Positions 5,994 to 31,084 of a stretch of DNA of 32,336 nt are shown piece by piece. The position numbers and the translations under genes are program-made. Each line of letters starts with the position of its first letter. Position 1 is the first letter of the stretch. Where the stretch lies: the IMG/VR virus record IMGVR_UViG_3300044612_001817, positions 1 through 32,336 of that record; one strand, given 5' to 3'. The notes beneath the pieces are model-generated. The model made no database searches, had not been told where the DNA came from, and saw only the letters and a program-made list of their open reading frames with translations. Source of the DNA: a virus.

Positions 5994-6013
5994 TATCAAC
6001 CGTTCAGTTGATA
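5994..6013. promoter_or_regulatory. Operator-like inverted repeat at the leftward promoter
   Basis: TATCAAC-CGTTCA-GTTGATA is a perfect 7-bp inverted repeat with a 6-bp gap. It lies over or just downstream of the predicted start of leftward transcription, where a bound protein would block initiation. Its TATCAA half-site is also the half-site of the iterons in the initiator gene, but with wider spacing. Autoregulation by the initiator is an inference. Confidence 0.5.
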
Positions 6014-6018
6014 AGCCT

Positions 6019-6048
6019 ATGATATATCCATATCCTTGCCATAGTCAA
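6019..6048 (-). promoter_or_regulatory. Putative sigma70 promoter for the leftward early operon
   Basis: On the minus strand TTGACT (6048-6043) is followed after 16 bp by TATATC (6026-6021), or after 18 bp by TATCAT (6024-6019). It lies upstream of the first leftward gene and next to the inverted repeat at 5994-6013. Confidence 0.55.
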
Positions 6049-6451
6049 GGACAATTACAAAAATATATGAAGAAAGTAAAAATAACCCAAGCACCCGAAA
6101 CAACTACTGAAAGTTTAATGTTGAATAAAGGACTCAAGATTAAACTCGAAAAAAACTATTGTTTGAGGTATTGACTGAGGGTACTTTGAGGGGGGAAGGG
6201 GGGTGCTAACACGAGGTAAACGGTTATATCAAACGAAAGTCATAGAGCGAGCAATCTGAGGAGATGACGGCACGTCGACGACGATAGAGAGCGAGCTCGC
6301 AAGGGAGTAAGTAAGGTACAAGTATAGAGGTAAGTAAGTAGGTGGATCGGTGTGTAGATAGAGTGGTTATAGTGTAGAGGTTAGATGAGGTTAGATTGAG
6401 GTAGATCGGATAAGGTAGGATGGTAGGACTGCGAGAACCACGGACTTGATA
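6049..6451. other. Gene-free divergent region
   Basis: No convincing gene lies here. It opens with an A/T-rich part (6050-6170), in which a 35-codon frame from 6066 lacks a ribosome-binding site. A G-rich cluster follows at 6179-6203 (GGG, then two runs of six G). The C-poor tract described separately is at 6301-6420. No clear rightward promoter was found for the following gene. Confidence 0.6.
6301..6420 (+). repeat. C-depleted GTAAG/GTTAG-rich tract upstream of the small terminase gene
   Basis: These 120 bases contain only three C on the plus strand. They are built from short repeated words: GTAAGTAAG (twice), GTAGA, and GGTTAGAT followed by GGTTAGATT. This composition is unlike any other part of the window. 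It sits about 30 bases before the putative terS, a usual place for packaging-recognition sites. Role inferred; it could also be an unstructured leader. Confidence 0.5.
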
Positions 6452-6826
6452 ATGACAATTAGATTGAGACTCGAACATCTAGTACCGGAAGCAATAGATG
6501 CACTAAGAGATGTGCTGAAAGATGGAACGGCAAGAGACAAGGTTGCCGCAGCGAAAGAGGTGTTATCGTGGGTCTACGGCGACCGCGAAACAGTCCAAAC
6601 GGTAGATATACAGCTATGCGCTGTTGCTCCGGAAGCAATCACACTAGATGAGATTCGCGCTGAGTCCGAGCGCCGCAGGATTGAATCCACTTCCCCGAGT
6701 CTGGTGTCCGATAACGGTTCTATTATCGGACATCAGAAACATAACGTTGAACAGAGGAAACTGAGGACAAGCGACGACCTGTTCCAAGCCATTGCGGATA
6801 TCCGTCCAGACTCCGAGCCGCAGTAG
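6452..6826 (+). CDS. Putative terminase small subunit
   Basis: A 124-residue protein; an in-frame TTG two codons upstream is the alternative start. No good ribosome-binding site is visible for either. The N-terminal LEHLVPEAIDALRDVLKDGT followed by AAKEVLSWVYGD matches the helical repeat pattern common in phage small-terminase proteins (many have an 'ALxxLxEIxxD...ARVxAAKxxLDxxYG' motif). The C-terminal half is variable and hydrophilic. TerS binds the packaging site and hands DNA to TerL. The assignment rests on that N-terminal pattern and the position before TerL, although an unusually long 520-bp non-coding spacer separates them. Confidence 0.5.
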   Translation: MTIRLRLEHLVPEAIDALRDVLKDGTARDKVAAAKEVLSWVYGDRETVQTVDIQLCAVAPEAITLDEIRAESERRRIESTSPSLVSDNGSIIGHQKHNVEQRKLRTSDDLFQAIADIRPDSEPQ

Positions 6827-7020
6827 TTTCCAATCCAATCCCGATTCCGCTCAGCTCACTAGGTGTTTTTCTTCCGCTTTTTCGCCTACTTGCGCCGATT
6901 CGACCCCCCCCACCCTCCGCCCCCCGATGCAAAACGGCAGGCACTTCCAGCCCACTGGGGAGACGCGCGTTGTAAGCCACCCTCTCCCCCCAAGCAAATT
7001 TCCCCAAAGCTCCTTCCACC

Positions 7021-7064
7021 TATCAAGTATTCCTTGACAACTGACCCCTCAATCCGGCTATCAT
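7021..7064 (+). promoter_or_regulatory. Putative rightward (late) promoter with overlapping inverted repeat
   Basis: TTGACA (7034-7039, perfect -35) is followed after 19 bp by TATCAT (7059-7064). The spacer is long by two bases, which usually means a weak or activator-dependent promoter. TATCAAG-TATTC-CTTGACA (7021-7039), an inverted repeat with one mismatch, overlaps the -35 box and shares the TATCAA half-site with the leftward operator. Confidence 0.45.
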
Positions 7065-7105
7065 GACGACACGAGGATCTCAACTAAGAGATGCGCGCTT
7101 CATAG

Positions 7106-7161
7106 AGCCTTAAGGAGAGTCGAATCTTGCCGGATGTAGATCTCTTTAAGGCTTCTTTTTT
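7106..7161 (+). terminator. Terminator-like hairpin in the late leader
   Basis: AGCCTTAA (7106-7113) pairs perfectly with TTAAGGCT (7146-7153); AGAG/CTCT extends the stem after a GG bulge. TTCTTTTTT follows. It lies about 35 bases downstream of the predicted start from the promoter at 7034-7064, so it would release an RNA of about 90 nt unless read through. Confidence 0.55.
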
Positions 7162-7348
7162 CCAGCCCTTCAGAATCCCTTAACAACTGCCCCCCCCTGG
7201 GACCCCATCCCCCATCAAATCAAAAAGAGTCTCATCCACCTCCCTTTCTAAAGCCCCTCTACCTCCTGATAGGCACTAGCGCCGCTACCCGATACCTGTG
7301 CTATCCTACTCATATCACCAATGCACTACAGGCCATTTACGAGGCTTT

Positions 7349-8776
7349 ATGGACGGAAGCGACGAGATATTAAGGCGGGCCTCTAAACTTGTATGGTTCC
7401 CTCAGAAGGGACCTCAAGAGGACTTGCTTAAATACAAGAGTGTTCCTGAGATACTGTTCGGAGGAAGTCGCGGAGGCGGAAAAACTGCCGCTCTTCTAGG
7501 GGATTTTGTAAGTGACGTTTCGGTTTATAAGCAGCACTGGGTTGGGATGCTCTTCCGTAGGACTTACCCAGAACTAGAGGAGGTGATTCGACAGAGTTTC
7601 GAGTTTTACCCTCAATCCGGTGCTTCCTATAATGCGAATGAGAAGGTTTGGAAATGGCCTAATGGGGCTAAACTTTATTTAAGGTACATGGCGCACCCAA
7701 GAGATGCCGCAAATTATCAAGGTTTCCAGGCAGTTTGGATTGGCTTCGATGAGATCGGTAACTTTGCCACCGATGAGGGGTTCACTCAGATGATTGCTTG
7801 TTTGAGAAGCCCTCACGATGTGCCTCATAAGCGGATCCGGTGTACAGCAAACCCTGGAGGCGTGGGCCACGGATGGGTAAAGGCGCGTTACGGGATAGCC
7901 GAGAACCCTCAAGGCTATAAGCTCCTAGAGCAAGACACCGGACTTCATAGGATGTTCATCCCTTCTAGAGTCACCGATAACCAGATTCTGATGAAGGCCG
8001 ACCCGACTTATGTTCAAAGGCTTCATGAGGTTGGGAGCCCTGAGATGGTGCGGGCGTGGTTGCATGGGGATTGGGACGTTGTAGCTGGTGCTTATTTTCC
8101 GGAGTTTAGTCAAGAACATGTTATTGATGCGATTGACCCTGATGACATCCCGAATCACTGGAAGATTTACAGGGCGTACGACCACGGGACCTATCACCCG
8201 TTTGCTGTGCTCTGGTACACCTATGCCGGAGAGGACTGGAGAGGCATCAAGAAGGGCTCGATTGTCATTTTAAGAGAATGGTATGGGGGGAATGATAAAG
8301 ACGAGGGGTTAAAAATGTCCCTTGTTGACATTCGAGACGGGATTACTGAGCGAGAATCAACTATTAAGAGAAGAATTGAGCCAGGGCCGGCGGATAATCA
8401 GATATTTGAGAACCACGGAGGTCAAAGTATTGCCGATGCGTTGGCGATTGCGGGGGTTTACTTCTCAAGAAGCGATAAGTCGAGAATTCCTGGCTGGAAC
8501 CAGATACGGATGAGGTTGAGAGAGAAAAGTTTGCTGTTTACTCGCAACTGTAAGCATTTGCTTAGAACCTTTCCGATGCTTCAGCACGATGATAGAAGGC
8601 CGGAGGACGTGGATACGCAAGGGGCCGACCATATCGGAGATTGCATTAGATATATTTGTATGCAATGGCCAGTTATCCCCCGTTTTGACAAGAAGAAGCG
8701 CCGAGACCCGAACGCAATGACCTACTCGGACTTGGTGGAGGCGGTGGACGATGTGAGCAATCGGTGGCGGATTTAA
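7349..8776 (+). CDS. Terminase large subunit
   Basis: A 475-residue packaging motor and nuclease. The start is placed at ATG 7349 (MDGSDEILRR), preceded by GAGG; a GTG at 7298 would add 17 residues without a better ribosome site. The ATPase domain shows Walker A GGSRGGGKT (38-46), Walker B WIGFDE (130-135) and the coupling motif TANP (166-169). The C-terminal nuclease domain has the acidic residues expected of the RNase H-like fold: YDHG (YRAYDHGTYHP), an Asp in GPADNQIFEN, and DHIGDCIRY. It docks on the portal encoded next door. The gene is typical in length and intact. Confidence 0.95.
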   Translation: MDGSDEILRRASKLVWFPQKGPQEDLLKYKSVPEILFGGSRGGGKTAALLGDFVSDVSVYKQHWVGMLFRRTYPELEEVIRQSFEFYPQSGASYNANEKVWKWPNGAKLYLRYMAHPRDAANYQGFQAVWIGFDEIGNFATDEGFTQMIACLRSPHDVPHKRIRCTANPGGVGHGWVKARYGIAENPQGYKLLEQDTGLHRMFIPSRVTDNQILMKADPTYVQRLHEVGSPEMVRAWLHGDWDVVAGAYFPEFSQEHVIDAIDPDDIPNHWKIYRAYDHGTYHPFAVLWYTYAGEDWRGIKKGSIVILREWYGGNDKDEGLKMSLVDIRDGITERESTIKRRIEPGPADNQIFENHGGQSIADALAIAGVYFSRSDKSRIPGWNQIRMRLREKSLLFTRNCKHLLRTFPMLQHDDRRPEDVDTQGADHIGDCIRYICMQWPVIPRFDKKKRRDPNAMTYSDLVEAVDDVSNRWRI

Positions 8777-8859: not shown

Positions 8860-11235
8860 ATGGCTGAGTACGAAAGCGACGACAAAGACAAAGAGCATCC
8901 CCTGCACACCGAGATTAGACGGTGGAAAAAGGCGCGTGACCGTTACTACGAGATGGCAAGGCGCAGTGAGCAGCTGTATGCCGGAGAGGATTTTAGTCAA
9001 TACTGCGAAAGACCCGCACAATTGAACGTGTTTTGGTCGATTGTTAATACGCTAAAGCCCGCTCTTTACGCCCAACCCCCTAAGCCGGAGATATTTAGGC
9101 GGTACCCTACTCGGGACGTTACAGCCCGCTTAGGAAGCCAGATTTTAGAGCGTTGCACACGGTTCCAGGTGGAAGTGTCGGGTTTTGATGCTGCCGTATC
9201 GCGTGCCGTTGATGATTACCTCGTTGTAGGCCAAGGTGCCCTATGGGTACGTTACGAGCCAAAGATAGGCGTAGAGACTCCTAAGATTAGAGTCCAAGAG
9301 GTAGCCCCCGCTCCTATGATGGGCCAAATGCCTGGTATGCCTCCGATGGAAGGGATGCCTCCTATGCCTGAGATGGGCATGGAGATGGGCGGCGAAATGG
9401 AAGGCCAAGAAGCTCCTGAAATGGGTGAAGCCCCTGAGCAGTACGTTGATGAGATGGGCCAACCTGTAGACCCTAGCCTCGTTAAACAGGACGACGAAGG
9501 CTACTACGTTGACGGAGAGCCCGTTGAAACGCTTTTAGATGAGAAGTGCGTAGTTGATTATATCCATTGGTCGGATCTGCTGTTTGAACCAGCAAGAACA
9601 TGGGCGGAAGTCCGTAAAGTAGCCCGAAAAACCCATATAACCAAAAAAGAGTTTAAGGAGAAATTCGGGGAAGATGCTTACACTAATTATCGCAACTCGG
9701 AGGAAGCGTCGCAGGAAGAAGGCGAGAAGGAAATAAATAAGAACCGTATCTGCGTTTACGAGGTTTGGTGCAAAGACTCCAATAAGGTCTATTGGTTAGC
9801 TGAAGGCCACAATGAAGTCTTAAAAGAGGACGAACCTTACCTTGTTTTTGATGAGTTCTTCCCCTGCCCTGAGCCCCTCTTTGCGACGCTCACAACCGGA
9901 CTTATCCCAAGACCCGATATCTGTTTTTACCAAGACCAGCAAGAGACCTTAAATCAGCTTTGCCAAAAAGCTCAAGATATCGCGAGATACATTAAGGTTG
10001 TTTCTATCTCTGGAAGCGAGAACCCAGAGCTAGACAACATATTAAAGAAGCCAAACGGCACCCACATCCAGCTATCTAACTTTCAGATGTACCTTCAACA
10101 GGGCGGCGTAAAAAGCGCACTGGAAGTACTCTCGATGGCCGACCATGCCGCGATTTTGCGCGTGCTGCATGAAGCGATGGAGCAAGAAAAGCAACAGATT
10201 TACGATATCACGGGTATCTCGGACATTGTGCGCGGTACTTCTCGTGCTTCTGAGACTTTAGGGGCGCAACAAATCAAGACTCAGTACGCAATGAGTCGAA
10301 TTAGTGAAAGGCAAAGAAAGGTTGCCAAGTTCTGCCGCGATGTGGTTGCCCTAATGGCGCAAATCGTAAAGAACCACTTCCAGCCTCAGACCATGATTAA
10401 GATGGCAGGGGTTACTAATGACCCTGACATAGAAGAGTATTTAGGCGGTGTAATTGACCTACTTCGCAATGATACTCAAAGCGATTATCGCATTGATATT
10501 GAGACAGATTCGACTACTTTTGCTGACCAAGAAGCCGCAAAACAATCCGCAATTGACCTAACTAACGCACTAGGCAATTTATTTAACGTGTTGCTTCCAC
10601 ACGCTCAAGCAATTCCTCAGTTGATGCCAGTCATTAACGAGATAACCTTGTACACCACAAGCCAGTTTGAGGCGGGCCGTGAGGTAAGGGGTAAACTTGA
10701 AAAAGCTCTCACCGAAGTAGAGGGCGAAATGGAAAAAGCTCGACAGGAGCAAAAAGCCATTGAAGAGCAGCAACGTCAAATGCAAGCTCAACAGGCTGAA
10801 CAGGCAATGCAAGCGCAAGCCGCTGAACAGCAAAGAGCTGATGCCGAATTGCAGATGCAAGCTCAACAACAGCAGCAGCAGCAGCCGCAGGTCGATACTA
10901 GGTTTATTGAGTTAGAACAGAAAAAAGCAATTGCAGAAGCGGAATTGCAGTTAAAAGCTCAAAAGCAGTTAGTTGAAGAGGATTTAAAACGGCAAGAAAT
11001 CGCCCTAGCTGACGAACGAGAGCGACGGGCCGAGGACTTGCGGCATGTACGCGAACAATTAAAGATGCAACTTGATAAGGCTGCACAGCTTAAAACTATT
11101 GCGCCTAAAAAGACAAAACGCGTAGGCAGAATCGGCGTTGATGAGATGGGTAATAAAATGGTCATCATTGAGGACGCAGAGGAACTGTTGCCCGAAGTAG
11201 AGCAAGTGATGGCACAAATAAGAGGGATTAGCTAA
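8860..11235 (+). CDS. Portal protein (P22-like)
   Basis: A 791-residue portal, the dodecameric ring through which DNA is packaged and ejected. The N-terminal region (IRRWKKARDRYYEMARRSEQ, then NVFWSIVNTLKPALYAQPPK, then ERCTRFQ) is characteristic of P22-type portals. Residues about 151-194 are a Met/Pro/Gly/Glu-rich insertion (repeats of MPGMPPMEGMPPM type). Residues about 626-740 are a Gln/Ala/Glu-rich coiled coil with a seven-Gln run, comparable to the helical barrel of long portals. The gene follows TerL after an 83-bp spacer, and its TAA shares an A with the ATG of the next gene. Confidence 0.92.
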   Translation: MAEYESDDKDKEHPLHTEIRRWKKARDRYYEMARRSEQLYAGEDFSQYCERPAQLNVFWSIVNTLKPALYAQPPKPEIFRRYPTRDVTARLGSQILERCTRFQVEVSGFDAAVSRAVDDYLVVGQGALWVRYEPKIGVETPKIRVQEVAPAPMMGQMPGMPPMEGMPPMPEMGMEMGGEMEGQEAPEMGEAPEQYVDEMGQPVDPSLVKQDDEGYYVDGEPVETLLDEKCVVDYIHWSDLLFEPARTWAEVRKVARKTHITKKEFKEKFGEDAYTNYRNSEEASQEEGEKEINKNRICVYEVWCKDSNKVYWLAEGHNEVLKEDEPYLVFDEFFPCPEPLFATLTTGLIPRPDICFYQDQQETLNQLCQKAQDIARYIKVVSISGSENPELDNILKKPNGTHIQLSNFQMYLQQGGVKSALEVLSMADHAAILRVLHEAMEQEKQQIYDITGISDIVRGTSRASETLGAQQIKTQYAMSRISERQRKVAKFCRDVVALMAQIVKNHFQPQTMIKMAGVTNDPDIEEYLGGVIDLLRNDTQSDYRIDIETDSTTFADQEAAKQSAIDLTNALGNLFNVLLPHAQAIPQLMPVINEITLYTTSQFEAGREVRGKLEKALTEVEGEMEKARQEQKAIEEQQRQMQAQQAEQAMQAQAAEQQRADAELQMQAQQQQQQQPQVDTRFIELEQKKAIAEAELQLKAQKQLVEEDLKRQEIALADERERRAEDLRHVREQLKMQLDKAAQLKTIAPKKTKRVGRIGVDEMGNKMVIIEDAEELLPEVEQVMAQIRGIS

Positions 11236-15409: not shown

Positions 15410-16387
15410 ATGGCAACGCCTAACGCATCTATCGGTGAAATGCTCACCGTAACGATGTACAAGAGATCGAAAAAGATGGCAGATGGGATATCGAAAAACA
15501 TCCCTCTGCTTCGTTTTATGAAAGACAACCAGAAGCTAGTTGCGGGTGGAGAATCCATCCTCGAAGAGCAGCTGTTTGCAGAAAACCCCTCTTATCAGCG
15601 TTATGCTGGTTCTGAGGTTCTTAACACTTCTCAGACCGAACAGTTTACGTCTTTCCGCTTTAACTGGAAGCAGGTGGCGGTTGCCGTTGTAATTAACGGA
15701 CTTGAAAGCGACGTTCAGAACACTGGACCTGAGCAGGTATTCGACCTCCTTGAAAAGAGAATCGAAGCTGCTGAGTACACAATGATGAACTCGATGGCAA
15801 CGGACGTTGAATCCGATGGGACAGCCGACGGTGGAAAGCAGATTGGTGGTTTGGGACTCCTTAACCCTTCTGCAAACACTTCTGGTTCGGTTGGTGGAAT
15901 TGATCGAGGAACCTATACCTGGGCGCGGAATCAGATATTTGATGCTTCCGATCTTGGGTTTGCTACCCTTACCAATGCCAATATTCAGCAGTTTTACGGA
16001 ATCTGTTTCGACGGACTAACCCGTAACGCTGAAAAACCTACCCTCGTATACGCAGGTGGAACGCATTTTAGACTTTACAGAGAGTCCTTGCAGACCATCC
16101 AGCGCATCATGAAAGTGGGTGAAGGCACCGTTGATACGATTGGCACTGGCCTTGAGTTCATGGGCGTTCCAGTTGTTAACGGCGGTGGGTATCAGGGTAT
16201 TGCGAATGCAACCACAACTCACTTCCTGAACATGAACCACTTGTTTTTCAAAACTGCATCGAAGCGTAACTTCGTGCCTTTGAAAGCTCGTGACTCGTTC
16301 AACCAGGATGCGACTGTCCGTTATTTGGCATGGGCTGGTAACATGACCGCTCGGAACTTGTTCCTTCAGGGACATGCTAAACCTTAA
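15410..16387 (+). CDS. Major capsid protein
   Basis: A 325-residue coat subunit with ribosome site AGGG before ATG. The N-terminal MLTVTMYKRSKKMADGISKN, FRFNWKQVAVAVVINGLE, and the central GGIDRGTYTWARNQIF are typical of a phage major capsid family with the HK97 fold. The C-terminus has the NMNHLFFKT and PLKARDSFNQDATVRYLAWA stretches seen in the same family, where they build the A domain. The gene follows the scaffold directly and precedes two head accessory genes. Length is normal and no frameshift is visible. Confidence 0.92.
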   Translation: MATPNASIGEMLTVTMYKRSKKMADGISKNIPLLRFMKDNQKLVAGGESILEEQLFAENPSYQRYAGSEVLNTSQTEQFTSFRFNWKQVAVAVVINGLESDVQNTGPEQVFDLLEKRIEAAEYTMMNSMATDVESDGTADGGKQIGGLGLLNPSANTSGSVGGIDRGTYTWARNQIFDASDLGFATLTNANIQQFYGICFDGLTRNAEKPTLVYAGGTHFRLYRESLQTIQRIMKVGEGTVDTIGTGLEFMGVPVVNGGGYQGIANATTTHFLNMNHLFFKTASKRNFVPLKARDSFNQDATVRYLAWAGNMTARNLFLQGHAKP

Positions 16388-16960: not shown

Positions 16961-17524
16961 ATGTTTCCGCAGATACAAGAAGATAGGATGCCCCTTCCAG
17001 GCCAGAGGATGCGCCACGGTGACGACTCCGCACTGCGGGTGAGGTTTTATACGGGGCCAAAATTCAAGAGCGAGGAGAGCCGTATAGAAGGCCGCGACGT
17101 GTACGACCCTGAAGTACAGATTGAATATATCGAGATTAAAGTACCAGGTGGCGATACCATCGTGAGGATTGCAACCTCAGATGACGTTAAAAGATTCTCC
17201 GAAATCTACCGACGATGGAAACTTGACGAAGGGCAAGACTTAGGTACCCCTCTTGATGTTCTTGGGTTTACCGAAGTGCAAAAAGATATGTGCACAAGAG
17301 CCCATGTGTTTTCGGTCGAACAGTTGTCAAAAATAGGCGACCACGCTCTTTCCGCTATCGGAATTGGAGCAATGAACATGCGGCGACGTTCTCAGGATTA
17401 CCTAAACGCTCGTCCTACTCCTAATGCTGAAGTCGAAGCTCTCAAAGAGCAGATGGCGGCGATGCAGAAGCAAAATGCAGAGTTACAAGATATGTTGAAA
17501 GAGCTCGTAAAAGGCAAAAAGTAG
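16961..17524 (+). CDS. Conserved phage structural-region protein (187 residues)
   Basis: The ATG at 16961 follows GAGG. The middle (IEYIEIKVPGGDTIVRIATS, DVKRFSEIYRRWKLDEGQDL, GTPLDVLGFTEVQ, VFSVEQLSKIGD) matches a widespread phage protein found between capsid and connector genes, which ends in a coiled coil, here KEQMAAMQKQNAELQDMLKE. Its function in the family is not established; a minor virion or head-assembly role is assumed from position. A terminator-like hairpin follows 32 bases after its stop. Confidence 0.75.
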   Translation: MFPQIQEDRMPLPGQRMRHGDDSALRVRFYTGPKFKSEESRIEGRDVYDPEVQIEYIEIKVPGGDTIVRIATSDDVKRFSEIYRRWKLDEGQDLGTPLDVLGFTEVQKDMCTRAHVFSVEQLSKIGDHALSAIGIGAMNMRRRSQDYLNARPTPNAEVEALKEQMAAMQKQNAELQDMLKELVKGKK

Positions 17525-17663: not shown

Positions 17664-19700
17664 GTGGCGACTCTTCTCTCTGTTCTCCAAGATGCCTGTG
17701 ATTTTGGTGGCTTCCCACGCCCAACATCCATAATCAACAATACGGACGCAACTACAAGACAGTTGCTAGCGATTGCCAACGAACGAGGCATTGAAGCCGT
17801 TCGAATGTTCGATTGGCCACAACTCACAAAGCTCTCTTCCCTCTCCCTTGTTGCTGGAACTAACCAAACGCTCCCCGCTGATTGCGCTGAATTACTCGAT
17901 TCAACGGCATGGTACACCGGAGACATGACCCCGATACGAGGCCCGATAACGCCTCGTGAATGGCAAGCACTTACACAAACAGGCAACGCCGGAATCAAGT
18001 TTGCGTTTCGCGTTACTCAAAGCAGCAAAGCAACTCGCGCCGTTGCTATGCATCCTACTCCGGTAGGCACCGAAACAATCAGCCTCTTTTACCGCTCAAA
18101 GACATGGATAAAGCCTCGTGATTGGGCGGCCTCTATGAGCGTCACAGCGGGCATGTGGGTGTTCTCCGATGGTGAGTATTGGACTGCAAATACAAGCGGC
18201 ACAGCGGGCAGTTCTGCGCCTACAATCGCCAACAATGGAGCCGATGGCACTATCACCTGGACCCGTAAGCCTAATGTTCTTTACGAGCGTTTTGTTGCTG
18301 ATACCGACGAACCACTAATTGAACCATCCCTCCTAATGAAGGGCATTTTAGCCCGATTCTACCGGATGAAGGGGCTTGAGTACCAGGATTTAGAGGCCGA
18401 GTTTAACATTGGGTTAAGAAACGACCTAGCTGAACGCAACGGTGGGCGAACGAGCAACCTGTTTAGGCATAGTTGCGGATTCATCGATACGGGATGCCGA
18501 GACGTTGGGTTCATTGGCGGGGCTAGTAGCACACCTACTCCTCCAGTACCTCCAGTACCTCCTGTGCCTAACAACTTACTGTTGATGGGTACTGGTCTCG
18601 CTGCACACTTTGGTACCCCAAGTAGACCTTACTTCTATTTTGGCGATGCTCAAATATTTGATCTTCAATCCATCCAAAATGAGTTTGCTGAAGTTTCGTG
18701 TGGCGATCGATATAGCTTATTTTTGAAAACCGACAATACTCTTTGGGCTAGTGGATTAAATGAGGGCCGTATTGGGAATGGAAGCTTTGATACAGTCGAT
18801 GTCGTACCCGCGATACAAATTCAACCAGGGACCACATGGAAGGCGGTTAGCGCAGGGTATTTATATTCACTAGCTATTAAAACAAACGGAACACTTTGGG
18901 GTTGGGGGAATAATACCTTTGTTTGGCAGACAGGATTCTGGTCATTAGGCGATGGAACCCAAAACTCTAGTGCGTCTCCAATCCAAATTGGCACCGATAC
19001 CGATTGGGCAAATGTTTTTGCTGGTAGTTTTGGAGGAATGGGACTCAAAACCAACGGAACACTTTGGTCGTGGGGATGGAACGGACATGGGCAATTAGGC
19101 ATTGGAGGTACCACTAATCAACTTGTCCCAACGCAAGTGGGCACCGATACCGATTGGGCAAAAGTAGCTTTTTCGGGGCAGCATGCTCTTGCCATTAAAA
19201 CAGATGGCACTCTTTGGGTATGGGGGAAAAATAATTACGCTCAGCTTGGCGATGGTGGTGGTTCGGTAAGAACAGTCCCATTTCAATTAGGCACAGATAC
19301 CAACTGGAAGGATATAGTAGCAGGAGATGAGCATTCCCTCGCGTTAAAAACAAACGGGACACTTTGGGGTTGGGGAAAAAATTCAACCTTTTATGGGGGT
19401 AGTCCATTAGGTCTAGGTGATAACATTGATCGCTCTGTTCCCACACAAGTTGGTACAGCAACCGATTGGGAATCTATCGGGAAAGGAATGGGAGTTAGTA
19501 CTCACCACGCCAAAAAAACCAATGGAACACTTTGGGGATGGGGCGCAAATTCTCATTTTCCAATTGGGGATGGAACCAATACCAGCATAAATGTTCCTAC
19601 TTTGATTCAATATTATAACTTGGGGAACCTACCCACTGGCATAATTAAAATAGCCAACGGCGGGTTGCACACTGTAATTTTAGTAACCCAAGGAGCCTAG
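17664..19700 (+). CDS. Head-tail connector (P22 gp4-like) fused to an RCC1-like beta-propeller
   Basis: A 678-residue protein with GTG start behind AGGA. Residues 1-275 resemble P22 gp4-like packaged-DNA stabilisation/adaptor proteins (SVLQDACDFGGFPRP, EAVRMFDWPQL, FYRSKTWIKPRDW, LLMKGILARFYRMKGLEYQD). Within it, about 163-203 is a small W/Y-rich module (GEYWTANTSGTAG...GTITW) like carbohydrate-binding inserts of phage proteins. Residues 289-302 are a Pro linker (PTPPVPPVPPVP). Residues 303-678 carry RCC1-type repeats, each with KTNGTLWGWG-like cores (six clear copies); the first and last partial strands would close a seven-blade propeller. Gp4-like adaptors are usually under 250 residues, so the C-terminal propeller is extra. 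It would project from the portal-tail joint. Propeller function (host or glycan binding) is inferred. Confidence 0.85.
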   Translation: MATLLSVLQDACDFGGFPRPTSIINNTDATTRQLLAIANERGIEAVRMFDWPQLTKLSSLSLVAGTNQTLPADCAELLDSTAWYTGDMTPIRGPITPREWQALTQTGNAGIKFAFRVTQSSKATRAVAMHPTPVGTETISLFYRSKTWIKPRDWAASMSVTAGMWVFSDGEYWTANTSGTAGSSAPTIANNGADGTITWTRKPNVLYERFVADTDEPLIEPSLLMKGILARFYRMKGLEYQDLEAEFNIGLRNDLAERNGGRTSNLFRHSCGFIDTGCRDVGFIGGASSTPTPPVPPVPPVPNNLLLMGTGLAAHFGTPSRPYFYFGDAQIFDLQSIQNEFAEVSCGDRYSLFLKTDNTLWASGLNEGRIGNGSFDTVDVVPAIQIQPGTTWKAVSAGYLYSLAIKTNGTLWGWGNNTFVWQTGFWSLGDGTQNSSASPIQIGTDTDWANVFAGSFGGMGLKTNGTLWSWGWNGHGQLGIGGTTNQLVPTQVGTDTDWAKVAFSGQHALAIKTDGTLWVWGKNNYAQLGDGGGSVRTVPFQLGTDTNWKDIVAGDEHSLALKTNGTLWGWGKNSTFYGGSPLGLGDNIDRSVPTQVGTATDWESIGKGMGVSTHHAKKTNGTLWGWGANSHFPIGDGTNTSINVPTLIQYYNLGNLPTGIIKIANGGLHTVILVTQGA

Positions 19701-19703
19701 CCG

Positions 19704-20891
19704 ATGCCGTACATTGATTACGCCGAGTGGTTTAGGCGCGAACAAAAGAGGAGGCAACAGGCAACCACTAGTCCATCAGGGGCACCGCAGGTTATTACTC
19801 AGACGAATACGCCTACTTCGTTTGAACAGATCGGTGGTCGTGCTGTCGATATTGGTAAAGAGGAATTAAAAGGTGAAATAAGGAACCGTGTTGCTGAAGC
19901 ATTAGCTCCAAGTGCGGCTCCGGCAGCAACGTCTGTTATCGCTCCAGGCATTGCCGTCCCTTCTGGATACACAGCGGTGGGGACAGCGGCAAGCGGCGGA
20001 ACAATAATTGCACCTTCTTCAGTTGCAGGTTATGGAGCTGGAGCAAGTAGTCTAGCCCCTGGAACTACCGCTGTTGGAACCTCAATTAAGGGCGGGACAA
20101 TGGTCGCGCCTTCTTCTGTCGCCGGATCAGGGGTTAAAGGTGCAAACGTTGGAGCCAGCAAAGCGGGGTCAGCTCTTGGGACGACCGCTAGTGCAATTGC
20201 TGCGGCCAAAGGTGCATATGACCTTTCAAGAGTTATCAACAAAAGGCAAGGGGCGACCGCTGGAGCTATGGCGGGGGCAACTCTTGGAGCTGGAACGGCT
20301 GGATTGCTCGGAGCGGCTGGATTAATCGCCTTGGGGCCATTAGGAATCGGAGCAGGCTTATTGTTAGGAGCCGGAGGCGGAGCCGGATTGGGCAAGCTAT
20401 TTTCGCCTCGACAAAAAAACCTAGAAAAAGAGCGATGGAAACGCCTTGAAAAATACTACGGATTTACTGGCTTAAAACCCGAATGGGTCGATACCAAGGA
20501 CGCAGCTCTAAAAGCGCAAGATAAGACTATGTCAAAAGACTTTGTTGGTTATAACGACAAAGGTCAGTGGGTAAATAATAAGTTCGCCAATAGTGGGAAA
20601 GACGCGGACTTAAAGGCTCAAGATATTCAACAATTTGCAACGAACTTTGAAACTTTTGGGAAAGAATATTCCGCCCTACCGGAAGAAAAGAAGCTGCAAA
20701 TGATGCAAATTGCGCTGGATAACGGTTTGGTGCGAGAACATAAAGGAACAGTGGATATAGCTTGGACCGATGAAACGTATCAGCAGGCCGCCGATATCTT
20801 ATTTAACGATCCTAGCGTTCAACAATTCCAAGCAGAACAACCTAGAGTTTACAGAGCCCCAACGTATGTACATCCGTCGAAGCGAAAATGA
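19704..20891 (+). CDS. Gly/Ala-rich ejection-type (internal virion) protein
   Basis: A 395-residue protein; SD AAGGAG precedes the ATG. The N-terminus is charged (IDYAEWFRREQKRRQQ). Residues about 90-142 hold two copies of a TAVGT...GGT...APSSVAG motif. Residues about 182-234 are a long Gly/Ala/Leu hydrophobic stretch with glycine-zipper character (GAAGLIALGPLGIGAGLLLG) that could insert into membranes. The C-terminal half is soluble and charged. Such proteins in podoviruses are packed in the head and form a channel on injection. Its stop overlaps the next start (ATGA). The family was not identified; the role is inferred from composition and position. Confidence 0.65.
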   Translation: MPYIDYAEWFRREQKRRQQATTSPSGAPQVITQTNTPTSFEQIGGRAVDIGKEELKGEIRNRVAEALAPSAAPAATSVIAPGIAVPSGYTAVGTAASGGTIIAPSSVAGYGAGASSLAPGTTAVGTSIKGGTMVAPSSVAGSGVKGANVGASKAGSALGTTASAIAAAKGAYDLSRVINKRQGATAGAMAGATLGAGTAGLLGAAGLIALGPLGIGAGLLLGAGGGAGLGKLFSPRQKNLEKERWKRLEKYYGFTGLKPEWVDTKDAALKAQDKTMSKDFVGYNDKGQWVNNKFANSGKDADLKAQDIQQFATNFETFGKEYSALPEEKKLQMMQIALDNGLVREHKGTVDIAWTDETYQQAADILFNDPSVQQFQAEQPRVYRAPTYVHPSKRK

Positions 20892-22390
20892 GAAGCACAA
20901 CCGCAACCATATCAGCACCAACTAGCGGATGGAACACCCGCGACCCTCTTGATCAGATGGACCCTACCTACGCCATTAAGATGATTAATGCGTTTCCAGA
21001 TGATGGGTTTGTGAGGACGCGCAAAGGATTTACTCAGCATTGTGCCATAACTGCCAACACTAGCGATGTAAATACGCTTGTCGAGCTCCCTTTAGCGAAT
21101 GGAACCAGCAAGCTCATAGCGTGTGCAGGGACTCGATTTTACGACGTTACATCTTCAAGCTCGGTTGCGTTAGGTCCAGCAATCACAAATAGCACTTGGC
21201 AGCATGTTCTAATTGGCAACCGGATACTGTTCTTTAACGGCAGCGATACCCCTCAAATGTATGACGGGACAACGTGGAGTCAGCCTAGTTTTAACGGGCA
21301 GGTGCATACGCTTACGCCGTCAAACTTGATACAAGGGTGCCAGTACAAAAGCCGCCTTTTTGTCGTTGAAAAGAACACTAGCTATGTTTGGAACAGCAAC
21401 ACGGCAGCGTTCCAAGGGCAGATGCACCGGATTGATTATAGCTACCTATTGCAACGAGGCGGCACTGTTCAATTTGTCGCTTCATGGTCTAGAGATACGG
21501 GAGTCGGATTACAAGATTACTTTGTAATCGTATCGAGTGAAGGCGAAGTACTTCTCTATTCTGGAACAGACCCAGAGAATGCGAACAACTGGTCTATCGC
21601 TGGACGGTTTTTCCTTCCTGAGCCAGTTGCCGGACGACGAGGATACTTAGGACTCGGCTCGGATCTGCTCATCATTCATAAAGCTGGTATTACCCCTCTT
21701 TCCTCGCTTCTTGCAGGTGGGAATAATTCTTCCTACGCCAGTATAACGGCAAATATCAATCAGGCTTTTTTGGCAGCCGCGCAAGATTACGGTGGTGCGG
21801 ATGGATGGAACGCCGCATATCACAGCGGTGGGAAAGCCGTTTATTTTAACATCCCAATCCCGAATATAGCGCAACAATTCGTGCTTAATCCCGACCGAGG
21901 GGCATGGGCTCAATACACGGGGATGCAAGCAAAAGTGTGGGCTTCGTTTGGCGATAGCATTTATTTTGGCGGGACGAATGGGCGGGTATTTAAAGCCGAA
22001 ACAGGGGCGCTCGATAACGGAGCCCCGATAAAAAGCGAAGTCCATATCGCCTATAATTATTTCAAAGACCGAGCGCGGATAAAGCGATTCACGATGATTC
22101 GTCCACATGTAAAAAGCGCACCAGGCGAAACGTTCTCAATTGGAACGGATGTAGACTTTAAGGAAGCCCCATTTACTTATACGACTCAAAATAATGAAGG
22201 TGGGTTTAACTGGAACGTCGGGCTTTGGAATCAAGCTCTTTGGAGTGCTCCCAAGATTCGTGGAGAAGATGTTTATTCGCTTACAGCTTTTGGACGGGCC
22301 GCAAGTATCAGTTTTGCTTTTGAAAGCACCACAGGACCGTACGAGTTTTACGCAGCAGCAATCACTTTTGAGACCGGAGGATTACTCTAA
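20888..22390 (+). CDS. Tail hub / tail stabilisation protein (P22 gp10-like)
   Basis: A 500-residue beta-rich protein. The opening (SAPTSGWNTRDPLDQMDPTYA, then AFPDDGFVRTRKGF) is the hallmark of phage tail stabilisation proteins of the gp10 kind, which read out as a beta-propeller-like hub under the connector. Further family stretches are NRILFFNGSDTPQMYDGTTW, QYKSRLFVVEKNTSYVW, and LLIIHKAGITPLSSLL. The C-terminal part (KRFTMIRPHVKSAPGETFSI) continues the beta pattern. It would seal the DNA channel and carry the tail appendages. The start overlaps the upstream stop by ATGA, so translation is coupled. Confidence 0.85.
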   Translation: MRSTTATISAPTSGWNTRDPLDQMDPTYAIKMINAFPDDGFVRTRKGFTQHCAITANTSDVNTLVELPLANGTSKLIACAGTRFYDVTSSSSVALGPAITNSTWQHVLIGNRILFFNGSDTPQMYDGTTWSQPSFNGQVHTLTPSNLIQGCQYKSRLFVVEKNTSYVWNSNTAAFQGQMHRIDYSYLLQRGGTVQFVASWSRDTGVGLQDYFVIVSSEGEVLLYSGTDPENANNWSIAGRFFLPEPVAGRRGYLGLGSDLLIIHKAGITPLSSLLAGGNNSSYASITANINQAFLAAAQDYGGADGWNAAYHSGGKAVYFNIPIPNIAQQFVLNPDRGAWAQYTGMQAKVWASFGDSIYFGGTNGRVFKAETGALDNGAPIKSEVHIAYNYFKDRARIKRFTMIRPHVKSAPGETFSIGTDVDFKEAPFTYTTQNNEGGFNWNVGLWNQALWSAPKIRGEDVYSLTAFGRAASISFAFESTTGPYEFYAAAITFETGGLL

Positions 22391-27533: not shown

Positions 27534-28901
27534 ATGGGCTTTGACGGCAGCGGAAACTACACAAGAACTAACGGCACTTTGAGCGGAAGCACTCTCTGGA
27601 CTCAAAGAGCGGCGCAAGCTAACCCCGTGATATCCGCGACAGAGCACGATGCCGAGATGAATGATGTTGCCACGGCTCTGACTGATTGTGTTAAGGCGAA
27701 CGGGTCTAAAGCCGTTACGGGCAATCAGCCTATGGCGGGGTTTAAGCACACAGGCGTAGGCGATGCTACGGCGAATGATCAGTATGTGGCTCTTGGACAG
27801 TTGACGAACAGCACTCTACAGTTTGATTCGGTTGCGGGCACTGCAGCCTCACCTGGGTTTGTCAGTGGCGACGACACCGATACAGGCGTATTTAGTCCTG
27901 GAGCAAATACTTGGGCAGTTGCAACGGGTGGAGTTGAACGGTTGCGCGTTTTGCCGACAGGGGAAGTGTCAATTACAAATACCATTCCACTTTTAACAGT
28001 GGGATCCACCGCAACGACCACCGAAGATTGTTCAGTACAAATTGGAGCCGCGAGGACTGGATCCGGCAATGCTTACGTCGATTTTGTAGGAGATACCACG
28101 TACACCGATTACGGAATGCGAATAATTCGAGGACCGTCGGCTAACGGCAATTCGGAGATATTGCATCGTGGTACGGGCAACTTAACTCTATCTGCCCCTG
28201 ATGGCGGATTGCTAAATATGTCACTTAGCGGGAATGTATTTTCGCTGAGTGCCGTAAACGGGCTTCAGATAGTCGATGAAAATAACAATGTGGGCGGTTT
28301 TATAACGACCAGTAAGCAAGCTGGAACCGCTAACAAGTTACGGATTTTTGGTTCACGCGGATCTGGTGGGGTTGTTATTCGAACAGATAACAGCGGAACG
28401 ATTGCGGATCGAGTCGATGTTGTGGATGCGGGCGACCTGCAACCTGTCACTGATAACGCCAACACTTGTGGCGCAAGCGGCAAGCGGTGGTCAGCAGTAT
28501 GGGCGGCGAACGGCACCATCCAGACTTCCGATGAACGCACTAAAAAAGATATTGCCGATTCTTCGCTTGGATTAGACTTCATAAAAACTTTACGCCCTGT
28601 CTCGTACAAATGGGTAGAAGGCTCAAAGGAAGTTACGGGGCAGGTTGACGGGCAAGCCCCAACAACGGTTAGCGTACCAGGGCAACGGACGCACTTTGGA
28701 TTAATAGCTCAAGAAGTGAAAGCGGCTCTTCCCGCGGGTGTTGATTTTGGTGGGTGGGTTCTAACCGACAAGAACGATCCTAATTCGCAGCAAGCTCTGC
28801 GGTATGACCAGTTTATCGCTCCGCTCATTCAAGCCGTAAAGGAACTTTCAGCAAAAGTCGAAGTATTGGAGGCAAAAGTTGCAGCATTAGAGGGGGCATA
28901 A
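27534..28901 (+). CDS. Tail fibre/spike with C-terminal peptidase S74 chaperone
   Basis: A 455-residue protein behind GGAGG. The N-terminus (YTRTNGTLSGSTLWTQRAAQ, then ATEHDAEMNDVATALTDCV, then NQPMAGFKHTGVGDATAND) is a common phage fibre attachment region. A beta-rich middle follows. From residue 332 the sequence SDERTKKDI...LGLDFIKTLRPVSYKW is the intramolecular chaperone of peptidase S74; the Ser and Lys residues perform self-cleavage after trimer folding. FGLIAQEVKAALP and a coiled-coil tail (VKELSAKVEVLEAKVAALEG) complete the domain. It is the likely receptor-binding protein and a trimer. Confidence 0.9.
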   Translation: MGFDGSGNYTRTNGTLSGSTLWTQRAAQANPVISATEHDAEMNDVATALTDCVKANGSKAVTGNQPMAGFKHTGVGDATANDQYVALGQLTNSTLQFDSVAGTAASPGFVSGDDTDTGVFSPGANTWAVATGGVERLRVLPTGEVSITNTIPLLTVGSTATTTEDCSVQIGAARTGSGNAYVDFVGDTTYTDYGMRIIRGPSANGNSEILHRGTGNLTLSAPDGGLLNMSLSGNVFSLSAVNGLQIVDENNNVGGFITTSKQAGTANKLRIFGSRGSGGVVIRTDNSGTIADRVDVVDAGDLQPVTDNANTCGASGKRWSAVWAANGTIQTSDERTKKDIADSSLGLDFIKTLRPVSYKWVEGSKEVTGQVDGQAPTTVSVPGQRTHFGLIAQEVKAALPAGVDFGGWVLTDKNDPNSQQALRYDQFIAPLIQAVKELSAKVEVLEAKVAALEGA

Positions 28902-29288
28902 ATGACCGAGGAAGAGCGGGTAAACCTATGCGATGTTGTCGAGCACCTTCGGACTCAGACCGAAGCCATTGTCGAGCTAACGCGGAATGTGACCGCTCTT
29001 TCCACCTTGCCAACGAGCTTGACCTTACAGGCTCAATCGGTTGCTGAGATTCGCTCGGACTTGGCCGCTATCGAGACTCGGCAGAGTGCTTTAATATCGC
29101 AGATAACGTCACTCACAACGCAAGCGATTCAGAGCCATCGACCAGCGCACTTGATACAGGTCGGGGGGTTTGTACTTGCGGTGACGCTCTTGATTCTTAA
29201 CCTTTTAGGCTATAGCGCAGGGATGAAAAATGGCCGATTTGAAATCGTTCGAGAACACACCGTTGGAGAAAATGCTAATCCAAGATGA
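28902..29288 (+). CDS. Single-span membrane protein of the lysis region (holin or lysis-regulator candidate)
   Basis: A 128-residue protein with GAGGGGG before the ATG. Residues 1-80 form charged helices with heptad character (VNLCDVVEHLRTQTEAIVEL; EIRSDLAAIETRQSALISQI). Residues about 84-105 are a single hydrophobic segment (LIQVGGFVLAVTLLILNLLG), and a short tail follows. Its last 59 bases overlap the lysozyme start in another frame. The order membrane protein then lysozyme fits a holin, but a long N-terminal coiled coil and C-terminal anchor are unusual for holins; an i-spanin would have the anchor at the N-terminus. The call is tentative. Confidence 0.6.
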   Translation: MTEEERVNLCDVVEHLRTQTEAIVELTRNVTALSTLPTSLTLQAQSVAEIRSDLAAIETRQSALISQITSLTTQAIQSHRPAHLIQVGGFVLAVTLLILNLLGYSAGMKNGRFEIVREHTVGENANPR

Positions 29289-29682
29289 GGGTTGGCGAAA
29301 CCGGATGTATGCCTGTCCAAAAGGTAAACTCACCATCGGAGTTGGGTTCAACCTGGAAGCTAACGCTATGTGTGACCCCGCGATTCGGGCGCAGCTTCGG
29401 CATGACATTGCTAAATCTCAAGAGTCAGCGGCTAAAGTAGTCGGTCCGGTTTGGGCTGAGATTGATTCTGTTCGGCAGGATATTTTGACTAGTATGGTGT
29501 TCCAGATGGGGGCTGGGGGCTTTGCCAAGTTTACCGACACGTTGGAAGCGGTCAGAGAAAAAAAATGGGCAGAAGCATCCACTCACATGTTAAACTCGAG
29601 GTGGGCAAAGCAGACCGGACGACGAGCGCGGCGGTTAGCTGAAATGATGGAGAAAGGAGAGTATGTCAAATATCGACTCTAA
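29230..29682 (+). CDS. Endolysin, T4-type lysozyme (GH24) with E-C-T catalytic triad
   Basis: A 150-residue muramidase cutting the MurNAc-GlcNAc bond. It aligns by eye with T4 lysozyme: DEGWRNRMYACPKGKLTIGVG for the active-site region and SMVFQMGAGGFAKFTDTL plus NSRWAKQTGRRARRLAEMM for the C-lobe. The catalytic Glu is E20 and the Thr is T35. The position of T4 Asp20 is occupied by Cys29, and the T4 His31 position by Phe40. Cys at the Asp position is known to keep activity in T4 lysozyme. There is no signal peptide or SAR segment, so a holin is needed for release. Its start lies inside the upstream membrane gene, and its end overlaps the next gene by 20 bp. Confidence 0.92.
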   Translation: MADLKSFENTPLEKMLIQDEGWRNRMYACPKGKLTIGVGFNLEANAMCDPAIRAQLRHDIAKSQESAAKVVGPVWAEIDSVRQDILTSMVFQMGAGGFAKFTDTLEAVREKKWAEASTHMLNSRWAKQTGRRARRLAEMMEKGEYVKYRL

Positions 29683-30020: not shown

Positions 30021-30560
30021 ATGAAAAAACTGATTCCCCTGATACTTTTAACTGCTTGTTCGGCAGAGCATCTGAAAGTCGCCGAACAGGTCTTAAGTGC
30101 GATACAACGTCACTCCAAGAGTTCTGTAGAGCCATCGGTTGCACCGAGCCCCACACCGACGATACAGCCTCTAGTTGCCCCAACAGCGGCACCGACACCA
30201 ACTCCTGCACCGATTGTACTCGTTGAAAACGAAGAGCCCGTAGAGGTCAAATGCGGGGCTAGAAACCCTAAAGACGGACACAAGCGCGGGTTTGTCTGGA
30301 AGCCTGAAAGCGACACTCAGAAGTGGGCGGTTGCGATTCTCCCGAATGAGTTAGGACCAGAACTCGAATGTACTTTCGCCGGACTCCCTGCCCGACATAA
30401 AGGGGCTCACCACGACGAGATTGGTACCGCTGGAACAAGGGAGGTCCATATTCTTGATGGCTGGACGGGCGAACGGTTGGAGAAAAAACACGGGCGTATT
30501 GTAGTCCGATGCGGATGCGTCCACTGGTCTATCCCTCGACCTTCGAAGCGAGTTGATTAG
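30021..30560 (+). CDS. Lipoprotein with Pro-rich linker (spanin-like or envelope protein)
   Basis: The start is placed at ATG 30021 (MKKLIPLILLTACSAEHLKV), with GGAGG eight bases upstream; longer in-frame starts would bury the signal. Residues 1-14 are a lipoprotein signal with lipobox LTAC (Cys13). A Pro/Thr/Ala-rich linker (PSPTPTIQPLVAPTAAPTPT) follows, then a compact C-terminal domain with Cys and His (VKCGARNPKDGHKRG; LECTFAGLPARHKGAHHDE; VVRCGCVHW). A lipoprotein with a Pro-rich stretch near the lysozyme resembles an o-spanin, but at 179 residues with a folded domain it is much longer than Rz1-type ones. Alternative: surface or exclusion lipoprotein. The stop overlaps the next GTG start. 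Confidence 0.7.
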   Translation: MKKLIPLILLTACSAEHLKVAEQVLSAIQRHSKSSVEPSVAPSPTPTIQPLVAPTAAPTPTPAPIVLVENEEPVEVKCGARNPKDGHKRGFVWKPESDTQKWAVAILPNELGPELECTFAGLPARHKGAHHDEIGTAGTREVHILDGWTGERLEKKHGRIVVRCGCVHWSIPRPSKRVD

Positions 30561-31084
30561 TGGCCGATCCAAGAGTTATCAACGGCGGTGGAAACGAGTG
30601 GTATACCCCTCCGCAGTATATTGAAGCGGCCCGAGAAGTGATGGGCGGGATTGACCTAGATCCCGCATCCAACGATATTGCCGCACAATGGATTAACGCC
30701 ACGAGCTATTACACTATTACCGATAATGGGTTAGCTAAAAGTTGGGAGGGGCGCGTTTGGATGAACCCGCCCTATTCTCAGCCACTCATTAGTCAGTTTT
30801 TTGAAAAGTTGCTATCCGAATTTGAAAAAGGCACCGTAACCGAAGCGATTGCATTGACCAACAATAACACAGATACGGCATGGTTCCATCGAGTCATGCA
30901 AGACGTTCAAGCCGTATGCTTTACCCGAGGTCGAATAAAGTTTCTTTTTGAGGGCACGAATAAGAAAGCTTCCCCAACGCAAGGCCAAGTTTTTTATTAT
31001 TTGGGACCAGCTCCTCAGCGATTTGTAGAAGTGTTTTCACAGTTCGGAACCTGTTTATTGGCTTCTCCGAACCCTCTTCCGTAA
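30560..31084 (+). CDS. Phage DNA N6-adenine methyltransferase (Dam-like)
   Basis: A 174-residue protein with GTG start sharing a base with the upstream TAG. It has the phage Dam signature: NEWYTPPQYIEAAREVMGGI, then DLDPAS (32-37) and the catalytic NPPY (69-72, in WMNPPYS). ALTNNNTDTAWFHRVMQD follows as in the family. These enzymes transfer a methyl group from SAM to adenine, probably protecting phage DNA from host restriction or marking it. No partner endonuclease is seen nearby, so it is an orphan. Its last 30 bases overlap the convergent regulator gene. Confidence 0.88.
   Translation: MADPRVINGGGNEWYTPPQYIEAAREVMGGIDLDPASNDIAAQWINATSYYTITDNGLAKSWEGRVWMNPPYSQPLISQFFEKLLSEFEKGTVTEAIALTNNNTDTAWFHRVMQDVQAVCFTRGRIKFLFEGTNKKASPTQGQVFYYLGPAPQRFVEVFSQFGTCLLASPNPLP

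Follow-up and report, generated by a model that had tools for sequence, protein, structure and literature searches.

A head-tail adaptor gene of a short-tailed phage fused to an exchangeable RCC1-type beta-propeller

Why should a head-tail adaptor gene of a short-tailed phage run on into a complete RCC1-type beta-propeller, and what might such a domain do at the neck of the particle? The question is raised by an intact ORF of 678 codons in the IMG/VR record IMGVR_UViG_3300044612_001817, which comes from a short-tailed phage and was analysed over its whole length of 32,336 bp (hereafter the window). The protein consists of three modules: an adaptor-ring domain, a CBM-like insertion inside it and, after a Pro-rich linker, a C-terminal propeller. 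A previous sequence-only reading had proposed that a Pro linker joins an adaptor to an entire RCC1 propeller, and this is confirmed by the ORF, by Pfam and by the predicted folds; the insertion was absent from that reading. The coordinates of the modules and of the surrounding genes are given in Table 1. The order MCP, 187-aa gene, adaptor and nozzle matches that of Rhizobium, Stenotrophomonas and Myxococcus phages, and related isolates carry a gene of ~195 aa at the position of the 187-aa gene. When host assignment was attempted, no relative was found among cultured-genome contigs.

Table 1. Modules of the fused protein and genes around it, in window coordinates.
Feature	Position	Strand	Residues or product	Basis or remark
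Terminase	7298-8776			
Portal	8860-11235			
Major capsid protein (MCP)	15410-16387			
187-aa conserved gene	16961..17524	+	187 aa	directly upstream of adaptor gene
Fused adaptor-propeller gene	17664..19700	+	678 aa	GTG start
Adaptor-ring domain	17664..18467	+	1-268	phrog_6013, fold, SU10_adaptor match of L010
CBM-like insertion	18114..18278	+	~151-205	fold matches and alignments
Alternative adaptor C-terminal tail	18468..18524	+	269-287	alignment
Pro-rich linker	18525..18569	+	288-302	L004/L005 swap breakpoint by codon-level comparison and blastn blocks
Predicted seven-blade RCC1-type beta-propeller	18570..19697	+	303-678	Pfam, model, fold matches
Gene 3' of adaptor	19704-20891			
Nozzle-like tail protein	20888..22390	+		phrog_5107; conserved partner downstream of adaptor
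Tail fibre	27534..28901	+		S74 chaperone end
Lysozyme	29230-29682			
Dam	30560-31084			
RecT	31674 onwards			

By sequence, the nearest named family of the N-terminal domain is phrog_6013 ('tail protein'), which matches residues 3-264 with E=1.2e-30; the corresponding protein of the sister contig L010 matches it over residues 1-280 (E=3.6e-36). The domain comprises helices at residues 4-15, 29-48, 221-236 and 241-258, plus a beta domain. Residues 1-302 were modelled with AlphaFold from 18 sequences (pLDDT 66), and at this pLDDT the top fold matches of model residues 1-262 are podovirus adaptor rings with Z scores of 9-12, namely those of cyanophage A4 (12.1), Pa223 (11.1), SU10 (11.0), Carin-1 (10.6) and T7 gp11 (9.5-9.7). 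The Pfam model PF24175 (SU10_adaptor) gave no match to the window domain; it matches the 56% identical L010 protein with a score of 36.5 against a cut-off of 27, as well as the adaptors of five isolates, four of them above the cut-off (72.1 for that of RHph_Y25). These isolates (Rhizobium RHph_Y25, Stenotrophomonas BUCT555, Bradyrhizobium ppBjS10J-1, EBPR podovirus 2 and Myxococcus Mx9) have an adaptor of 200-244 aa at the same gene position, and a gene of ~1.5-1.6 kb in nozzle position follows directly or almost directly. A PDB sequence search with N-domain profiles gave nothing significant.

We assign residues 1-262 to the head-tail adaptors of SU10/T7 gp11 type. With the group of SU10 gp11, PF24175 and phrog_6013, to which T7 gp11 and KP32 TTPA belong, these residues share the predicted fold and the gene neighbourhood, and homologues of the window adaptor match the Pfam model. 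Adaptors of this type have ~190-245 aa, whereas the window protein adds the insertion and ~390 aa of linker and propeller. The domain had earlier been compared with P22 gp4: its assignment as an adaptor holds, but the best matches are SU10-, A4-, Pa223- and T7-type adaptors, and the gp4 label is not supported, no gp4 match being seen in Pfam or among the fold matches listed.

The 54-aa insertion is missing, in alignments, from the 200-244-aa adaptors of the related isolates and is present in all sisters, including those devoid of a propeller. Its predicted fold resembles the receptor-binding domain of the Pam1 tailspike, with Z 8.9 and an rmsd of 2.0 over 54 residues. Chitinases and chitin deacetylases match it through their CBM region at Z 5.5-7.8 (rmsd 1.4-2.5 over ~48 residues), the best of them being a chitin deacetylase at Z 7.8. 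As neither Pfam, queried with the insertion alone, nor the PDB sequence search gave sequence-level support for a CBM identity, we regard the insertion as a putative small carbohydrate-binding-like module, a lead at the level of the fold.

The C-terminal region is matched by three Pfam RCC1 models: PF25390 (E=2e-55, residues 339-672), PF13540 (4e-41) and PF00415 (2e-36). It contains six LWxWG-type repeats and is modelled with a pLDDT mostly of 80-98 over residues 340-650. Residues 303-675 of the model align to the complete seven-blade propeller HERC2 RLD2 (Z 46.7, rmsd 1.7, 341 residues). As this range takes in both the first strand (~303-310, modelled with low confidence) and the last one (~670-675), one at either end of the domain, the ring is predicted to be closed with seven blades, and the proposal that six repeats plus split first and last strands would close such a ring is borne out by Pfam and by the predicted structure. 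Further fold matches include UVR8, RCC1 and BLIP-II (the latter at Z 27). The domain has in common with RCC1, UVR8, HERC2 and BLIP-II the closed seven-blade propeller and the Pfam RCC1 repeats, with Z scores up to 46.7; the RCC1-like domains are 20-26% identical to the window propeller, a putative virion cassette for which we see no grounds to assume nucleotide exchange or chromatin binding.

The propeller is an exchangeable cassette, and the breakpoint lies in the Pro linker. The same fusion is present in seven other metagenomic phage contigs (L002, L003, L004, L005, L006, L008 and L039), several of which are distinct sequences, L003 and L008 being identical over the fused protein. When the fused proteins are compared, the identity of the adaptors amounts to 94-100%, or 58% where L039 is concerned, and propellers of different types, the L002/L039 pair excepted, are 34-54% identical. 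L004 and L005, that is, records G003 and G004, share ~97-98% nucleotide identity on both sides of the propeller, along the structural genes; their propellers share 34% of their amino acids, and their tail fibres are identical in 417 of 417 residues. According to codon-level comparison and blastn, their divergence starts in the Pro linker and stops at the stop codon, and a second variable stretch lies in the gene after the adaptor. For L002 and L039 the propellers are 72% identical and the adaptors 58%, and trees of the two parts conflict: L039 groups with L009 by its adaptor and with L002 by its propeller. Third-position G+C amounts to 0.47-0.53 in the adaptor and to 0.35-0.38 in the propeller. 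Since the propeller is swapped while the fibre stays the same, the two vary independently, and the suggestion that the propeller competes with the fibre for adsorption finds no support. We also rejected a diversity-generating retroelement as the source of variation, as a reverse transcriptase (RVT_1) match was not found in the nine records searched, several of them fragments.

Selection on the two parts was compared in pairs of L003, L004 and L006, which have one propeller type in common. Values of dN/dS were 0.01-0.03 for the adaptor and 0.58-1.32 for the propeller, and the contrast yields Fisher p values of 1e-5 to 1e-8. As dN significantly exceeds dS in none of these pairs, relaxed constraint on the propeller is possible. 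The substitutions are concentrated in the loop that follows LWxWG (13 of 23 sites within 74 of 353 columns, p=1e-4), a loop that was defined post hoc, after inspection of the data, and the counts are small and affected by recombination.

The propeller is also dispensable, as sister phages keep the adaptor gene without it. In L009, L010, L040, L042 and L044 the adaptor has 283 aa and ends in ..NIKEG.W; in the alignment, residues 269-287 of the window protein (..CGFIDTGCRDVGFIGG..) stand in place of the ..ISEANIKEGNW end of these propeller-less adaptors. In L009, what is left of a window-type adaptor is a stump of 99 aa (6001-6300); the adaptor encoded directly after it (6552-7403) is complete, has no propeller and belongs to a different clade, an arrangement that is likely the result of a gene replacement. 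Between the capsid and adaptor genes, LamG-like genes were recognized by eye in L009 (4666-5586), L010 (4728-5921) and L039 (2888-4532); two of the three proteins match phrog_10356, a virion structural family.

What, then, is the cassette for? The best reading, to which we assign a probability of roughly 0.6, is that of an accessory host-adhesion propeller carried by a collar of SU10/T7 gp11-type adaptors, probably 12 in number. SU10 adaptors are dodecamers located between portal and nozzle (PMC9509320), and by analogy with them and from the gene order we infer that the window adaptor would likewise form a ring of 12 at that site. The outer side of the ring would display the CBM-like insertion and, on its Pro-rich tether, the propeller, which would thereby be a presumed outward-facing virion component. 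Such a collar would probably provide the short-tailed particle with weak, multivalent contacts to the host surface or matrix that aid cell capture ahead of the fibre or together with it, and the propeller would diversify by tracking changes of the host surface. By calculation, a circle of ~97 A radius has room for twelve adjacent propellers of 50 A, which makes a tethered collar possible on steric grounds. Host binding by the propeller is putative, and consistent with the swapping of cassettes and with the loop-focused variation.

Two parallels make accessory adhesion the best reading. In the neck passage structure (NPS) proteins of lactococcal 936 phages, variable and exchangeable C-terminal binding domains sit on a conserved N-terminal neck ring domain, and for one of these domains, a CBM, host-cell binding has been demonstrated (PMC6669499); the window protein resembles them in combining a conserved ring domain with a variable C-terminal domain. 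The 936 proteins, however, belong to siphophages and build a BppU-type collar that bears coiled-coil fibres, whereas in the window protein an N-terminal domain of adaptor fold leads into a short Pro linker, with neither a BppU-like domain nor a coiled coil: here the adaptor ring itself would bear the module, an RCC1 propeller, in a short-tailed phage. The second parallel is phage OWB, whose adaptor TTPA (tail tubular protein A) binds a host receptor protein and takes part in adsorption (PMC7241545); it is not known to carry an extra propeller. Propellers are found on phage adhesion devices as well, that is, at the C-terminus of phiKZ gp131 (4GBF) and in the phi11 RBP, both suspected of binding a receptor or GlcNAc (PMC4901313), but these are located in the baseplate and have little sequence similarity to the window propeller (8% identity in the case of 4GBF). 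Among the papers searched, none on RCC1 proteins as phage receptor-binding proteins was found. As the ligands of RCC1 propellers are diverse, the fold names no target. Against adhesion, a collar close to the capsid may not reach the cell for a first contact, and the raised omega of the propeller may reflect relaxed constraint.

Somewhat unlikely, but the strongest of the competing explanations, is that the propeller binds a target other than a receptor (a polysaccharide in the environment, the matrix of a biofilm, mucus or a surface on which the phage rides) and so prolongs residence near hosts. Ig-like capsid domains have been proposed to work in this manner (discussed in PMC13320782), and the CBM-like insertion together with the LamG-like genes of the sisters suggests general glycan binding. 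It is improbable that the propeller is an internal part of the virion, clamping or stabilising the portal-adaptor-nozzle joint or docking the fibres, with its diversity arising from co-adaptation to partners. SU10/T7-type adaptors do dock fibres (PMC9509320), the SU10 nozzle is likewise formed by a seven-blade propeller and the 5' portion of the gene next to the adaptor is variable too; nevertheless, the propeller is swapped while fibre, nozzle and neighbours remain 97-100% identical, sisters do without it, and a surface in contact with conserved partners would be expected to be conserved itself, which propellers with 34-54% identity between types are not. A role against host or competitor defences at the cell surface, as a decoy or in phage exclusion, fibre competition included, is highly improbable: BLIP-II, which binds beta-lactamases at picomolar affinity, shows through its match to the model that an RCC1 fold can be a protein inhibitor, but neither sequence nor gene context offers evidence for it, and no link between propeller and fibre is seen. 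Just as improbable is an artefact of the reading frame (an assembly chimera, or two proteins arising by internal start or cleavage), for although third-position G+C falls from 0.50 to 0.36 at the junction and cleavage is compatible with the sequence, the recurrence of the same fusion in seven other contigs all but rules out a chimera, and near the linker neither a conserved in-frame start nor a Shine-Dalgarno-like site was found.

Returning to the accessory-adhesion reading, a bolder form of it is that the adaptor ring constitutes a second, independently evolving receptor-binding organ, in which a 12-fold collar of propellers and CBM-like modules would choose the cells to be captured while the fibre remains constant, and whose module could move to other virion parts, a different repeat array being carried by a putative decoration protein of sister phages, described below. 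This we put forward as tentative, with the odds somewhat against it. Host range of short-tailed phages is usually put down to fibres or spikes alone. The natural pair described above, near-identical phages with the same fibre that differ only in the adaptor-borne domain and in a stretch of the next gene, makes the adaptor ring as a separate adhesion organ directly testable and, if the proposal is true, a function would be provided for abundant phage proteins annotated as 'regulator of chromosome condensation'.

Some further observations concern related proteins. A viral scan with the propeller profile returned at least ~600 stretches, and among 72 other viral RCC1 ORFs the adaptor domain was found only in L045, whose contig is that of L039. 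Viral contigs commonly carry RCC1 propellers (L045-L121), often as stand-alone ORFs of ~370-400 aa, and a short variable N-terminal tag is often present; these stand-alone proteins are possibly virion adhesins. In L040 and L044 (2675-4168 in both), a putative decoration domain of 126 aa continues at its C-terminus into an array of repeats, each of ~47 aa (GKIY..P...IID), which resembles a propeller in its pattern only, and the 126-aa putative decoration protein is stand-alone in L009 and L042. Within the window, the gene 3' of the adaptor varies in its first half and is better conserved in its second. The first 93 residues of the fibre are kept between phages (90%), with strong divergence beyond. 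The PHROG 5107 name of the nozzle-like protein, 'amidase', is probably a misnomer, its gene position and length pointing to a tail nozzle.
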